This document shows, piece after piece, positions 36,865 through 43,259 of a stretch of 64,000 nucleotides of DNA. Both the position numbers and the translations under genes were made by a program. Source of the stretch: Pseudomonadota bacterium (lineage in GTDB: Bacteria > Desulfobacterota > Binatia > Binatales > Binataceae). Each line of letters opens with the position of its first letter. Position 1 is the first letter of the stretch. The notes under the pieces were generated by a model, which saw nothing but the letters and a program-made list of their open reading frames with translations, was not told where the DNA came from and ran no database searches. The stretch is from the NCBI GenBank assembly GCA_021323945.1, contig JAJPKA010000005.1, forward strand, positions 31,029-95,028, given 5' to 3'.

Positions 36865-38058
36865 ATGGAAGCCAAAGGCAATATCTCCCCAAATCTCACG
36901 GCAGGATCAGCCCGTCAATATCAGCCCTACCTCGAAGCTGAATGGGGGTTCAAGAACAGCTGGTACCCGGCACTCTTCAGCTCTGAGCTCGAGGAGAACC
37001 AGATTAAAGGCGTTACGATTCTCGGGCGCGAAATCGCTTTACGACGCGCACGCGGCCAGGTCTATGCGCTTGATGATCGATGTGCCCATCGCGGCGTTCG
37101 GATGTCGTTGCGTCCGACCTGTCTGACCGATGAGACGATTACCTGCTGGTATCATGGGTTCACCTATAATCTGCGCGATGGCATTCTCAGGACTATAGTC
37201 GCTTCTCCGGACGACCCGCTGATCGGCAAAATCAGACTCCGGACATATCCCGTCGCCGAACGGGCAGGCATAATCTTTGTTTTTGTGGGGGACGAGGAAT
37301 ATCAGCCTGCACCACCTCTTGAAGCTGATCTTCCTATCCGGATTAGCGACGATAAGAATGCCGTCGCCCACATTCTGGATGAGCAGGCTTACGTGCGGGG
37401 GATACATCGCCGGGGCAACTCCAACTGGCGCCTGGCAGTCGAAAACGGTTTCGACCCCGGGCATCTGCTGATTCATTGGGATAACCAGATCATCGCTGCC
37501 ACCGACCGCAACCTAGGGCTCGGCGCGCTTCCGGTCACCGAGGATGCAATCAAGATCATCGATGAGCCTGGCGGTCCCAAGGGCATGATGAATATGTATA
37601 ACACCCGCGCGTATAAGTTTTTCGGCGAGAATCGCGAAATCGGCCTCAAGGCGCGCGGGAAGAAGCCCTACTACGCGCGTACCTCGGTGTTCTTGCCAGG
37701 TTTGCTTCTGGTCGAGCACTGGCCCGCTCCCGGATGGGCGCAATACGAATGGTATGTTCCGATCGACAACAGGCACCATGAGTATTGGGAGGTGCTGGTC
37801 GGACGTTGCACCAGTCCGCAGGAGCGGCAGGAAGCCGAGTACCTTTACGAGCATTTTTTTGAACCCCTCGCGCTGAAGGATTTCAACGATAACGATCTGT
37901 TCGCGCGCGAAGCAATGCAGAGTTTTTATGAACAGGGCGGCTGGGAACGGGAAAATCTCTGCGCCTTCGACGACGCGACCATCGTTTGGCGCAAAATCGC
38001 GTCGCGGTTCAACCGGGGTATTCAGGAGTCACCCCATCGGCGAACCATTCACTCGTAA
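36865..38058 (+). CDS. Rieske aromatic ring-hydroxylating oxygenase, terminal oxygenase component, CarAa (carbazole dioxygenase)-like
   Basis: Rieske CAHRG...CWYHGFTY; SNWRLAVENGFDPGHLLIHWD (H-x4-H); FEWYVPID-like YEWYVPIDNRHHEYW; EPLALKDFNDNDLFAREAM...WRKIASRFNRGIQ. Confidence 0.9.
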   Translation: MEAKGNISPNLTAGSARQYQPYLEAEWGFKNSWYPALFSSELEENQIKGVTILGREIALRRARGQVYALDDRCAHRGVRMSLRPTCLTDETITCWYHGFTYNLRDGILRTIVASPDDPLIGKIRLRTYPVAERAGIIFVFVGDEEYQPAPPLEADLPIRISDDKNAVAHILDEQAYVRGIHRRGNSNWRLAVENGFDPGHLLIHWDNQIIAATDRNLGLGALPVTEDAIKIIDEPGGPKGMMNMYNTRAYKFFGENREIGLKARGKKPYYARTSVFLPGLLLVEHWPAPGWAQYEWYVPIDNRHHEYWEVLVGRCTSPQERQEAEYLYEHFFEPLALKDFNDNDLFAREAMQSFYEQGGWERENLCAFDDATIVWRKIASRFNRGIQESPHRRTIHS

Positions 38059-39122
38059 AAACAGCGAATCAGTCTCAGACAGCCTTGAGGACCGTTACCC
38101 TTCATTTCGAAGACGGTGAACAACGGCGGATCAAAGTTCGCGAAGGCGAGTTTGTGTTGGATGCGGCCCTTCGCCAGGGAGTGCCGCTGGTGCATCAATG
38201 CCGGTCGGGGAGCTGCTCGACCTGTGTCGCGCAGCTAATTACCGGTAACATCGAGACAGCGTCGGATCGCTCCACTTCATTGCTGGCTATAGAGGCCGCT
38301 GAGGGCAAGCGGCTCTTGTGCAGTTCCTACGCTCACGCAGACAGCGAGCTTGCCCTCCATTATCCGGCCTCCTTGATTTATGGCACCCGTATCAAGGTAG
38401 TCGAGGCATCCGTAGCCGCGCTCGAATGGCCTGCACCCTCTGTCGCCAGGCTCACACTGGAACTTGCCACGGACCGCGACTTCACGTTTCGCAGTGGTCA
38501 ATACGTCCGCCTCAAGATTCCCGGCGCCAACGAATGGCGCTCCTATTCGATCGCATCGACCGTACGCGAGCTGCCCTGCCTGCACTTTCTCATCCGGATC
38601 CTCGAGGGAGGGGTGGTCTCCGAATATTTGCGGACTCGATGCCGCCAGGGTGACGAAATCCTGATTGAGGGACCAATGGGCGCGTTCATCCTCCGCCCGG
38701 TCAAAGCACCGCAAATCTTCATCGCCGGCGGTACCGGCCTTGCCCCGATTATGGCCATGCTCGATGAAATGCGTTACCGTCCAGGTCCGCGTCCGCCAAT
38801 GTTGCTGAGCTTCGGCTGCGCCAGCGAGCGCCAGTTCTTCTATCGCGACGAGATCGAATTGCGGCAATGGTGGATGCCAGAGCTGCGGGTAATCTTAAGC
38901 GCGGACCGTGTCGAGAATCGAAATTCCGACCTCTATGAGGGCAATCCGGTCGCCGCCGTAGCGCGCGAGCCGATAACCGACCGGGAAACCGTCGCATACC
39001 TGTGCGGACCACCGACAATGATCGAAGCTGGTCGTCGGCAATTGACCGAAATGGGCCTTGCGCCGGAACATATCTACGCCGAACAGTTCCTACCGAGCGC
39101 GATCAGCCTGGCCGGACGATAA
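37986..39122 (+). CDS. Oxygenase reductase: 2Fe-2S ferredoxin + FAD/NAD(P)H domains (BenC/CarAd-like); start uncertain (TTG at 38085 possible)
   Basis: CRSGSCSTCVAQLITG; GQYVRLKIPGANEWRSYSIAS; GPMGAFIL...IFIAGGTGLAPIMAMLDEM; YLCGPPTMIEAGRRQL. Confidence 0.92.
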   Translation: MAQNRVAVQPGYSGVTPSANHSLVKTANQSQTALRTVTLHFEDGEQRRIKVREGEFVLDAALRQGVPLVHQCRSGSCSTCVAQLITGNIETASDRSTSLLAIEAAEGKRLLCSSYAHADSELALHYPASLIYGTRIKVVEASVAALEWPAPSVARLTLELATDRDFTFRSGQYVRLKIPGANEWRSYSIASTVRELPCLHFLIRILEGGVVSEYLRTRCRQGDEILIEGPMGAFILRPVKAPQIFIAGGTGLAPIMAMLDEMRYRPGPRPPMLLSFGCASERQFFYRDEIELRQWWMPELRVILSADRVENRNSDLYEGNPVAAVAREPITDRETVAYLCGPPTMIEAGRRQLTEMGLAPEHIYAEQFLPSAISLAGR

Positions 39123-39344: not shown

Positions 39345-40721
39345 ATGGATGTAGAGCAAAAGCCGAAGCTTCAATCCGCCGACCAAGACGACCAGCTGAC
39401 AAAACCAGTGCGGCTATCGGCGGAACAGGAACGATGGTACTCGGAAGCATGTGCGCGATTGGACCCAAACCGGCTGCGGCAGTTGTTGATCGACCTTGTG
39501 AACATTCCAAGCCCGACGGGCGCCGAGCGACCCGCTAATGAATTCGTCACTGAGTACCTGAGACACCGACTCGACGGTCACGCTCGCTACCAGCCAGTCA
39601 ATGAAGATACTGGCAATGCGATCGGAGAAATCCGCGGCCAAGGCGAAGGAGCCACTCTACTTCTGTACTCGCCCATCGATACCCACCTCGAGGGCAATGC
39701 GGAAAAAGACCTGCCTTGGGCAGGACCGGTGCTGCGAGCTGACATGATTACCCGAGGCCGTGCCGAGGGTGACCTGGTATTCGGCCTGGGAGCTGCCAAT
39801 CCCAAAGGTATGGTCGCAACCTTGGCCGAAATCGCAGTAGCCCTTCACGAAGCAAGGGTTCCGCTGGTTGGCGATCTCGTCGTCGGCTTCGCCGGCGGAG
39901 GCATGCCGGTCAATGTTGGCGAGCGGCGGCATTACGGCATGAGCGACGGGATCTATCATTTGCTCACGCGCGGAGTTGCTCCGGACTTCGCCATCATTAT
40001 GAAGCCCGTGTGGCGCGTCTACGCCGAAGAACCGGGCATGTGTTGGTTTAAAATTTCGGTGCGCGGCACGCTGGGCTACGCAGGAATTCCTCGCAACACA
40101 CCAGGTTACCGAGATTCAATTGTGGCTGCAGCCGAGATCATCAAGCTGTTAGAGGCCTGGATTCCCGAATACACGGCGCGCAACACTTCGGGCGAGATTG
40201 CACCAGAGGGCCGCATCGCGGCGGTGCGAGCCGGTTGGCCCGAGCGTCCCGCCTTTCCCTCTGCCACCACTGAAATCTATCTGGACCTTCGTTGTAATCC
40301 GCGCACCTCACCCGCCGAGGTTAAAGCCCAGTTTGCCGCGGCAATGCGATTGATACAAACACTTAAGCCGGACATAGAATTCGATTGGGAAATGTACGGG
40401 GCTTGTCCGGGCGGCGCCACAGATCCGAACAACTGGATAATCCAGTCGGTGCGCCGGGGATGGGAGCGCGTTCAAGGTCGACCACATGGGACACCGCCAA
40501 AACTCGGCGGCCAAACCGATGGTGCTCTCATACGACGTTTGGGCATCCCCTGTGCACGCATTGGATTCCCATGGCCACCGCGCGGCTGCCCGCAGGAGTT
40601 TACACAAGGGCTGGGTGGAATGGGAGTCGCATCAATTCCCGATCTGATAAAGTCAGCGCGCGCCATCATCTACGCGGTAATCGACACGCTTACTCGGCCA
40701 CGTCACGAACTCGGCCTATGA
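39345..40721 (+). CDS. M20-peptidase-family-like protein, probably lacking the catalytic metal site
   Basis: Overall M20 layout (IPSPTGAERPANEFV; GLGAANPKGMVATLAEIAVAL; DFAIIMKPV; GQTDGALIRRLGIPC) with ligand positions substituted. Confidence 0.75.
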   Translation: MDVEQKPKLQSADQDDQLTKPVRLSAEQERWYSEACARLDPNRLRQLLIDLVNIPSPTGAERPANEFVTEYLRHRLDGHARYQPVNEDTGNAIGEIRGQGEGATLLLYSPIDTHLEGNAEKDLPWAGPVLRADMITRGRAEGDLVFGLGAANPKGMVATLAEIAVALHEARVPLVGDLVVGFAGGGMPVNVGERRHYGMSDGIYHLLTRGVAPDFAIIMKPVWRVYAEEPGMCWFKISVRGTLGYAGIPRNTPGYRDSIVAAAEIIKLLEAWIPEYTARNTSGEIAPEGRIAAVRAGWPERPAFPSATTEIYLDLRCNPRTSPAEVKAQFAAAMRLIQTLKPDIEFDWEMYGACPGGATDPNNWIIQSVRRGWERVQGRPHGTPPKLGGQTDGALIRRLGIPCARIGFPWPPRGCPQEFTQGLGGMGVASIPDLIKSARAIIYAVIDTLTRPRHELGL

Positions 40722-41212
40722 AGCCCAACGATTGGCTAGCTGACCGACGCGCGCCCTATCTGGTCGGCCTGATTTCCGATACTCATGGCCTGATGCGCGC
40801 TCAAGCCCTGGACGCTCTTCTGGGCTCGAAGCTGATACTCCACGCTGGAGATATAGGTGATGCGGCGGTGCTGAAATCCCTCGCAGCCATTGCCCCGGTA
40901 CGAGCGGTGCGCGGCAACAATGATAAAGGCAAATGGGTCGCAAACATCCCCGCCACTGATGCTCTCGCGATCGGCGCCCATTCGATTTATCTTTTGCACA
41001 ATCTTGCGGAACTCGACCTGGATCCAATAGCGGCAGGCTTTACCGTCATCGTTTACGGCCATTCTCACAGACCGCTCGTTGAACAGCGCGAGGGAATTCT
41101 CTTCGTTAATCCAGGCAGCGCTGGTCCACGCCGCTTCAGTCTGCCGGTGACCGTCGCTAGATTGAGCATTTGCGGCCGGCGCTGCGAGGCGAAACTCATC
41201 CAGCTCCTGTAA
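40718..41212 (+). CDS. YfcE-family metallophosphoesterase
   Basis: ATG at 40718 overlaps the previous stop region; LVGLISDTHGLM; LILHAGDIGD; VRGNND; VIVYGHSHRP; LFVNPGSAGPRR. Confidence 0.92.
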   Translation: MKPNDWLADRRAPYLVGLISDTHGLMRAQALDALLGSKLILHAGDIGDAAVLKSLAAIAPVRAVRGNNDKGKWVANIPATDALAIGAHSIYLLHNLAELDLDPIAAGFTVIVYGHSHRPLVEQREGILFVNPGSAGPRRFSLPVTVARLSICGRRCEAKLIQLL

Positions 41213-42059: not shown

Positions 42060-43259
42060 TCAGATAATCTGCTTGGCCCGCAGCTCTGCAATTTGCTCCG
42101 GACTGTATCCGAGTAGCTGCTGCAGCACTTGCTCGGTATTCTCGCCAAGCGAGGGTGCTCGAGTTGCAGGCGCACCGCGTATACCAGCGGTTTTCAAGGG
42201 CGAGCCGGGCACGATTAGGTCGTGGAACACCGGATGATCGGCTCGAAGGATCATGTCTCGTTCCTGCAAATGAGGATTGGCAGCCACTTCATCCACGGTG
42301 GCAATCGGTGCGGCGGGCACGTTAGCCTGCTGCAGCTGTGCCAGCCAATGCGAACGCGGTCGGGTTGCAAAATGGCGCGACAGGATCGCCTCGAGTCGGG
42401 AGTGGTTGGCCGTGCGATCGGCATTGGTCGCGAATCGCTGGTCATCTTTTAATTCGCTCAAACCGATGGCATCGCAGAATCGCCGCCAAATCGCCTCGTT
42501 GCCACAGCCAGCTACAAAATAACCGTCCGCGGCTCGAAACGGCTGAAATGGCGTGATCGAAGGGTGGCGCGAACCGATCGGTCCCGGCACGCGACCCGTA
42601 GTCGAAAAACGCGCCAGTGCATCTTCAAGCCAGGCAACCTGGCAATCCAGCATTGCGATGTCGAGATGCTGGCCTTCACCTGTCTGGTCACGGATACGTA
42701 GTGCGGCCAGGATTGCGACGGCCCCATAAAGAGCGGCGGCCAGATCGCCGATGGAAACACCGCAGCGCGTCGGCGCCCCATCAGGTGCACCCGTTATGCT
42801 CATGGTGCCGCCAAGCGCCTGGGCTACGATGTCATAGGCGGGCGCGGATGCCATAGGTCCGGTTTGGCCGAAGCCGGAAATTGAACAAAGGATTATACGG
42901 GGATTGGCTGCCTGCAGGCGCTGGAAGCCGAGATTAAAGCGTTCCATCGTGCCCGGTGAAAAATTCTCGACGACCACGTCAGCGTGCCGGACGAGCTCGC
43001 AGAACAATTCGGCGCCGGCTGAACGACGCAGGTCCAGAGTGACGCTCAGTTTTCCGCGGTTAACACTATAGAAGTAAGCGGAATCACCTGAATCAGGAAT
43101 GCGGGGGGCATAGCCGCGCGAATCGTCGCCGGTGCCTGGCAGCTCGATCTTGATCACTTCTGCACCGAGATCCGCCAGATTCATTGTACAGAAGGGGCCC
43201 GCCAGTACCCGGCTCAGATCGAGCACGCGAATTCCGGCCAATGGCCTCTGGTGGATCAT
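42060..43259 (-). CDS. CaiB/BaiF family CoA-transferase
   Basis: PLAGIRVLDLSRVLAGPFCTMNLADLGAEVIKIELPGTGDDSRGY; SVNRGKLSVTLDLR; ISGFGQTGP; GVSIGDLAAALYG. Confidence 0.96.
   Translation of the reverse strand: MIHQRPLAGIRVLDLSRVLAGPFCTMNLADLGAEVIKIELPGTGDDSRGYAPRIPDSGDSAYFYSVNRGKLSVTLDLRRSAGAELFCELVRHADVVVENFSPGTMERFNLGFQRLQAANPRIILCSISGFGQTGPMASAPAYDIVAQALGGTMSITGAPDGAPTRCGVSIGDLAAALYGAVAILAALRIRDQTGEGQHLDIAMLDCQVAWLEDALARFSTTGRVPGPIGSRHPSITPFQPFRAADGYFVAGCGNEAIWRRFCDAIGLSELKDDQRFATNADRTANHSRLEAILSRHFATRPRSHWLAQLQQANVPAAPIATVDEVAANPHLQERDMILRADHPVFHDLIVPGSPLKTAGIRGAPATRAPSLGENTEQVLQQLLGYSPEQIAELRAKQII

Follow-up and report, generated by a model that had tools for sequence, protein, structure and literature searches.

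Within the window, by which we mean the whole stretch of 64,000 nucleotides, the gene at 39345..40721 (+) is an intact open reading frame with an ATG start that encodes 458 amino acids of a metal-less M20-fold protein. Upstream on the same strand lie a Rieske oxygenase of the homotrimeric ring-hydroxylase type (36865..38058; PF11723 and PF00355) that resembles OxoO, and an OxoR-like ferredoxin/FAD/NAD reductase (PF00111, PF00970 and PF00175) listed at 37986..39122 (+). The true start of the reductase probably lies inside this listed frame, and the reductase is a conserved neighbour of the M20-like gene. Downstream, a YfcE-type metallophosphoesterase (40718..41212, +; PF12850) overlaps the M20-like gene by 4 bases through an ATGA at 40718. 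A preliminary description of this stretch had reported both the intact frame and the overlap correctly, but the link it drew to YfcE is not supported. Of 74 loci, just 2 have YfcE beside the M20-like gene, one in the window genome and one in a second genome of that genus, so YfcE is probably not part of the system and we reject the partnership. A CaiB-type CoA transferase at 42060-43259 on the minus strand is conserved beside the M20-like operon, and close copies of it (75-81% identity) occur in Binatota only.

The PDB sequence closest to the M20-like protein is NaaA, the 5-nitroanthranilate aminohydrolase (E 3.5e-23). Its match to the ArgE/DapE superfamily in NCBIfam, at 42 bits, is far below the cut-off of 218. 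An AlphaFold model made from an alignment of 63 homologues has a mean pLDDT of 91.7 and a pTM of 0.91. Foldseek places the NaaA structure 5k8p first (E 1.5e-34; TM 0.80 by query and 0.86 by target; about 23-25% identity), followed by carboxypeptidase G2 (CPG2), DapE, ArgE and carnosinase with a probability of 1.00. On this model the protein has a confident M20 fold. The likeness to DapE, ArgE and carboxypeptidase G2 covers the whole chain, catalytic and lid domains both (with target-based TM values reaching about 0.8), and it includes the structural Asp112 and the order of the motifs. What separates the protein from the M20 metallopeptidases and deacylases is that it has no metal ligand and no catalytic Glu, and that its PF01546 score of 19.7 bits is below the Pfam gathering cut-off of 24.6.

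The metal-binding positions of the M20 enzymes and of NaaA we take to be those established for the family. We assigned them here by aligning the protein to NaaA and to Binatota relatives in which GHMDT is retained. All of the motifs quoted in the preliminary description are present on the + strand. At YSPIDTH (39666..39686), which had been read as a lost GHxD, the metal His is indeed replaced by Pro110, but the Asp of HxD is kept as Asp112; His114 is new. At GAANPKG, which runs from 39789 to 39809 and so starts one base earlier than had been given, the bridging Asp is Asn152, followed by an invariant Pro153-Lys154. Gly185-Gly186 in FAGGGMP (39888..39908) take the place of the catalytic Glu and the metal Glu, and Lys220-Pro221 in MKPV (39999..40010) that of the third metal acid. 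GTLGYAGIP (40065..40091), with an invariant Tyr245, stands where M20 enzymes have the His motif of the dimerisation domain. The region of the C-terminal metal His reads QEFTQGLGG (40593..40619) and has no His; G422, L423 and G425 are invariant there, and M426 and G427 follow. In the alignment none of the di-metal ligands (His, bridging Asp, Glu, Asp/Glu and His) is present, nor is the catalytic Glu. The His and Glu of the mononuclear site that NaaA retains are likewise absent in the alignment with NaaA.

Judging by the sequences of its relatives, part of this erasure appears to predate the M20-like clade. NaaA and Binatota relatives of about 28% identity already have Asn at the bridging position and GE for EE, so the loss of ligands looks stepwise. 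These proteins keep the metal His and the second Glu; beyond the NaaA-like state, our family has Pro for the His, Gly for the Glu and Lys for the third acid. NaaA (PDB 5k8m-5k8p) is the best match in both sequence and fold and shares the Asn, whereas the His, Glu and third acid of NaaA are Pro110, Gly186 and Lys220 in our protein, and Arg289 of NaaA is Ala303 (59 of 63 homologues). A large metallohydrolase fold seems to have shed its metals in steps, from a di-metal M20 enzyme through a NaaA-like state with Asn to a ligand-free family. Other Binatota (L084-L102) have many NaaA-like M20 paralogues, with up to 6 matches per genome, that carry the GHMDT and GE motifs; these are probably mononuclear and are candidate aromatic or amide hydrolases.

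A scan of 84,980 species genomes found 72 loci whose homologues are 53-76% identical; they fall in Binatota, Actinomycetota (Rhodococcus, Nocardia, Mycolicibacterium and Pseudonocardia) and Pseudomonadota. The preliminary description had asked whether homologues share the substitutions and form a conserved clade, and they do. P110, D112, H114, N152, K154, G185, M187, K220, P221, Y245 and D392 are invariant in 63 of 63 aligned homologues, and G186 is kept in 62. Two of the search patterns spanned K220 and residues 414-421, so the invariance of these positions is partly ascertained; the remaining sites lie outside every pattern. A pattern-free search also found a sister clade at 38-42% identity that has Pro110, Asp112, Asn152-Pro-Lys, GGMP and Lys220-Pro in common with the first. 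The metal-less sequences form one branch against the relatives that retain His, with 100/100 support, although the branches are long. Values of dN/dS for close pairs are mostly 0.03-0.13, with two exceptions, one of 0.42 at very low dS and one of 0.29.

These data bear on whether the gene is simply a decaying M20 gene, a sequencing error or an artefact of alignment. The weak Pfam score would fit such an explanation, but frames are intact in dozens of genomes from several phyla, purifying selection is strong and the fold is predicted with confidence, so that we take it as refuted and give it hardly any credence. The claim that this is not ordinary decay is borne out, as is the claim of an M20 fold with its metal site erased. 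The substitution pattern is neither chance nor local decay on the sequences compared, and the family is a living one. The ligand-free state is kept in three bacterial phyla. One Binatota homologue (G035:C1:35210-36541, loci L005/L080) has an in-frame TAG near its 3' end, which is either a sequencing error or a recent truncation. There is also a plasmid match (H1), which lacks annotation.

The conserved residues also bear on whether the protein is a metalloenzyme after all, with its metal held by shifted residues such as Asp112, His114, Glu228/229 and Asp392. Acids are available for this, since D112, D214, E228, E229 and D392 are conserved across both clades, and His114 is invariant in the clade linked to OxoO. 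However, the sister clade has Val or Ala at this position, so we reject a site relocated through His114 as a general explanation. No His and no Cys is found among the residues kept in at least 97% of both clades, and a relocated His/Cys site is therefore unlikely. Intact ligands supplied from shifted positions had been named as what would overturn the first reading; we looked for them and the wider family conserves no His or Cys that could supply the site. A Lys at 220 and a Pro at 110 would also disfavor a cation. We consider a shifted metal site quite improbable. What both clades do conserve is Asp112, Asn152, Lys154, Lys220, Tyr245, Asp392 and Arg397, and these residues make up a candidate catalytic set.

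The neighbours of the gene suggest what such an enzyme might act on. The best PDB match of the window Rieske protein is OxoO, the 2-oxo-1,2-dihydroquinoline 8-monooxygenase (1z01; E 9.8e-131, 53% identity, homology over the full length). PF11723 led at first to a reading as a carbazole-type pathway, and the operons do resemble those of CarAa (carbazole 1,9a-dioxygenase) in this Rieske type and in having an extradiol enzyme and an MCP hydrolase downstream. We reject this reading because OxoO is a much closer relative (440 bits against 301 for carbazole dioxygenase), and we know of no M20-like gene in the car operons. At a Pseudomonas alkylphenolica locus (L037) the oxygenase is 86% identical to OxoO from end to end, and the Pseudomonas loci with the M20-like gene also carry an AraC-type regulator, as does the oxoO/oxoR system of P. 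putida 86. The difference from that quinoline system is that genes for a molybdenum quinoline 2-oxidoreductase are not among the frequent annotated neighbour families of the M20-like loci; the substrate may therefore be something other than quinoline.

In most of the 74 loci the order is Rieske, reductase, (extradiol), (amidase), M20-like, (MCP hydrolase). Within the stretch of sequence examined at each locus, the reductase occurs with the M20-like gene in 68 of 74, an amidase in 66, the Rieske oxygenase in 65 and an extradiol dioxygenase in 53. The clade therefore does lie next to Rieske genes, one of the two neighbours (YfcE or Rieske) that the preliminary description had proposed to check. 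The extradiol enzyme resembles BphC, and the hydrolase resembles HsaD/BphD. In loci of high GC content, long open reading frames on the strand opposite to the Rieske and M20 genes (gene families 0 and 4) are gene-calling artefacts. Binatota operons are mostly reduced to Rieske, reductase and M20-like gene, with an amidase adjoining the latter in two Binatota loci. The window operon has neither an extradiol nor an amidase gene adjoining it. Elsewhere in the window organism's genome the best extradiol homologue is 36% identical and lies far from the operon, the best amidase homologue carries a stop, and there are four molybdenum hydroxylase matches; for these reasons the substrate of this organism is less certain.

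The oxygenase and the M20-like protein appear to be inherited together. Among 145 genomes of the Binatota class, the 10 that have an OxoO-like Rieske protein (at least 59% identity) are precisely the 10 that have the M20-like protein (Fisher 1e-15, a value that overstates independence because the genomes are related). The matrix of pairwise distances for the M20-like protein tracks the matrices for the Rieske protein (r = 0.90) and the reductase (r = 0.915), and 0 of 999 permutations were as high, although the relatedness of the hosts also contributes to these correlations. Two Binatota genomes (G002 and G017) have 5-8 copies each of OxoO/CarAa-type Rieske genes, which suggests an expanded aromatic catabolism.

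Such a close partnership would also be expected of a pseudoenzyme, a non-catalytic accessory that uses the M20 fold only for binding, either to hold a substrate or product or to stabilize or dock on the Rieske protein or reductase. Every metal ligand is gone, and the oxygenase and reductase are the main shared partners in Binatota operons and give the strongest distance correlations. Yet polar residues are invariant exactly at the old catalytic positions, which is more than a scaffold needs, and the same pattern is kept in the sister clade beside a distantly related Rieske protein. The OxoO/OxoR-type and carbazole-type oxygenases have been described without such a subunit; to our knowledge none of their solved complexes contains one. 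We regard a pseudoenzyme as unlikely, though it is the main rival to our own reading. The non-hydrolytic scaffold mentioned in the preliminary description is possible but less likely than a repurposed catalyst, because polar residues are invariant in the former active site and the gene is placed between oxygenase and ring-cleavage enzymes. The other suggestion made there, a different chemistry, gains support from the same substitutions recurring across a conserved clade.

We believe, with confidence that stops a little short of even, that the gene encodes a functional metal-independent enzyme that works with an OxoO/OxoR-type oxygenase in the catabolism of N-heteroaromatics like 2-oxoquinoline. 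OxoO adds a hydroxyl group to C8 of 2-oxoquinoline, next to the ring nitrogen, as established for P. putida 86. Extradiol cleavage requires a catechol, and the nitrogen must therefore be exchanged for oxygen before it can proceed. NaaA, which acts on an aromatic nitrogen substituent, catalyses hydrolytic aromatic deamination with a metal. The 8-hydroxycoumarin route gives off ammonia at some point between 8-hydroxy-2-oxoquinoline and 2,3-dihydroxyphenylpropionate; the latter, the substrate of 3-carboxyethylcatechol 2,3-dioxygenase, is the product of the pathway (PMC9029321). 8-Hydroxycoumarin itself is reduced by XenA (PMC7913881).

In the proposed scheme the Rieske oxygenase would hydroxylate the carbocycle ortho to the ring nitrogen. 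The M20-like protein, helped in many operons by the amidase-signature protein, would then replace nitrogen by oxygen hydrolytically, most likely by converting 8-hydroxy-2-oxoquinoline to 8-hydroxycoumarin and NH3. Alternatively the lactam might be opened first, perhaps by the amidase, and the resulting o-aminophenol deaminated. The catechol-type product would be cut by the extradiol dioxygenase and processed by the ring-cleavage hydrolase. We assign the M20-like protein to the C-N step because it is the conserved gene between the flanking activities and because its nearest solved relative deaminates aromatics. What the data show is the fold, the loss of the ligands, the invariance of the substitutions, purifying selection, the operon and joint occurrence with the oxygenase; that the protein is catalytic, free of metal in fact and active at this step is what we infer from them. 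The proposal that a Rieske-paired family of metal-free M20-fold hydrolases strips the ring nitrogen (C-N to C-O) from hydroxylated N-heteroaromatics is a tentative one, which we find credible without calling it probable. Metal-free hydrolysis of a C-N bond on an electron-rich ring is chemically demanding, and NaaA uses a metal. The amidase or an alpha/beta hydrolase could also do the nitrogen step instead.

It is possible that the M20-like protein is a metal-free hydrolase or isomerase at some other step, such as opening of the lactam, hydrolysis of the hydroxycoumarin lactone or processing of the ring-cleavage product. Two amidases, a cysteine-less racemase-like protein and two alpha/beta hydrolases in these operons have no assigned step, so genomics cannot fix the order of steps. 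Still, the M20-like gene is mostly alone with oxygenase and reductase in Binatota, and its place in the sister clade is between the oxygenase and the extradiol enzyme, where probes found no amidase. This pairing and this position favor a step straight after hydroxylation, and we think a role elsewhere in the pathway rather improbable.

The sister operon is informative in itself. In Rhodococcus (L111-L115, the clade at 38-40% identity) the M20-like gene stands beside a different Rieske gene, of about 30% identity to the OxoO type. These loci contain the Rieske gene, the metal-less M20 gene, a class III extradiol dioxygenase and alpha/beta hydrolases, then ABC transporter genes. The extradiol enzyme is most like 3-carboxyethylcatechol 2,3-dioxygenase and comes with an MCP-type hydrolase; no amidase was detected by the probes. 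A metal-less M20 protein paired with Rieske and ring-cleavage enzymes is thus found again, in a second and divergent operon. This operon may serve a second N-heteroaromatic pathway.

We know of no gene assigned to the C-N step by which hydroxylated quinolones become coumarins, and the M20-like family is a specific candidate for it. If it does remove the ring nitrogen, it would be the missing enzyme of the 8-hydroxycoumarin route and would perform a chemistry with no known case in the M20 fold. These genes are likely annotated as M20 peptidases or deacylases and will be misread in genome annotation. A literature search that took in few subscription papers, the kind that includes the original reports of the P. 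putida 86 cluster, returned nothing on metal-less M20 enzymes or this gene; within the same limited scope, nothing usable on it came from searches for M20 pseudoenzymes, for the combination of M20, Rieske and extradiol genes or for the P. putida 86 cluster.

A further protein in the same operons deserves mention. At 42 loci (for example L010:9326-10084) there is a racemase-fold protein (PF01177, Asp/Glu/hydantoin), our RAC family. We dropped an identification as maleate isomerase, since the protein matches the Asp/Glu/hydantoin racemases yet lacks both cysteines. If the M20-like enzyme removes ring nitrogen, it would share its operon with a second repurposed enzyme, this one of a cysteine-less Asp/Glu-racemase fold. 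From its sequence the RAC protein appears to be a second case, within one pathway, of an active site that has been repurposed or erased: both catalytic cysteines are invariantly replaced, one by Ser/Thr (N[ST]xSD) and the other by Ser (GSTTM).
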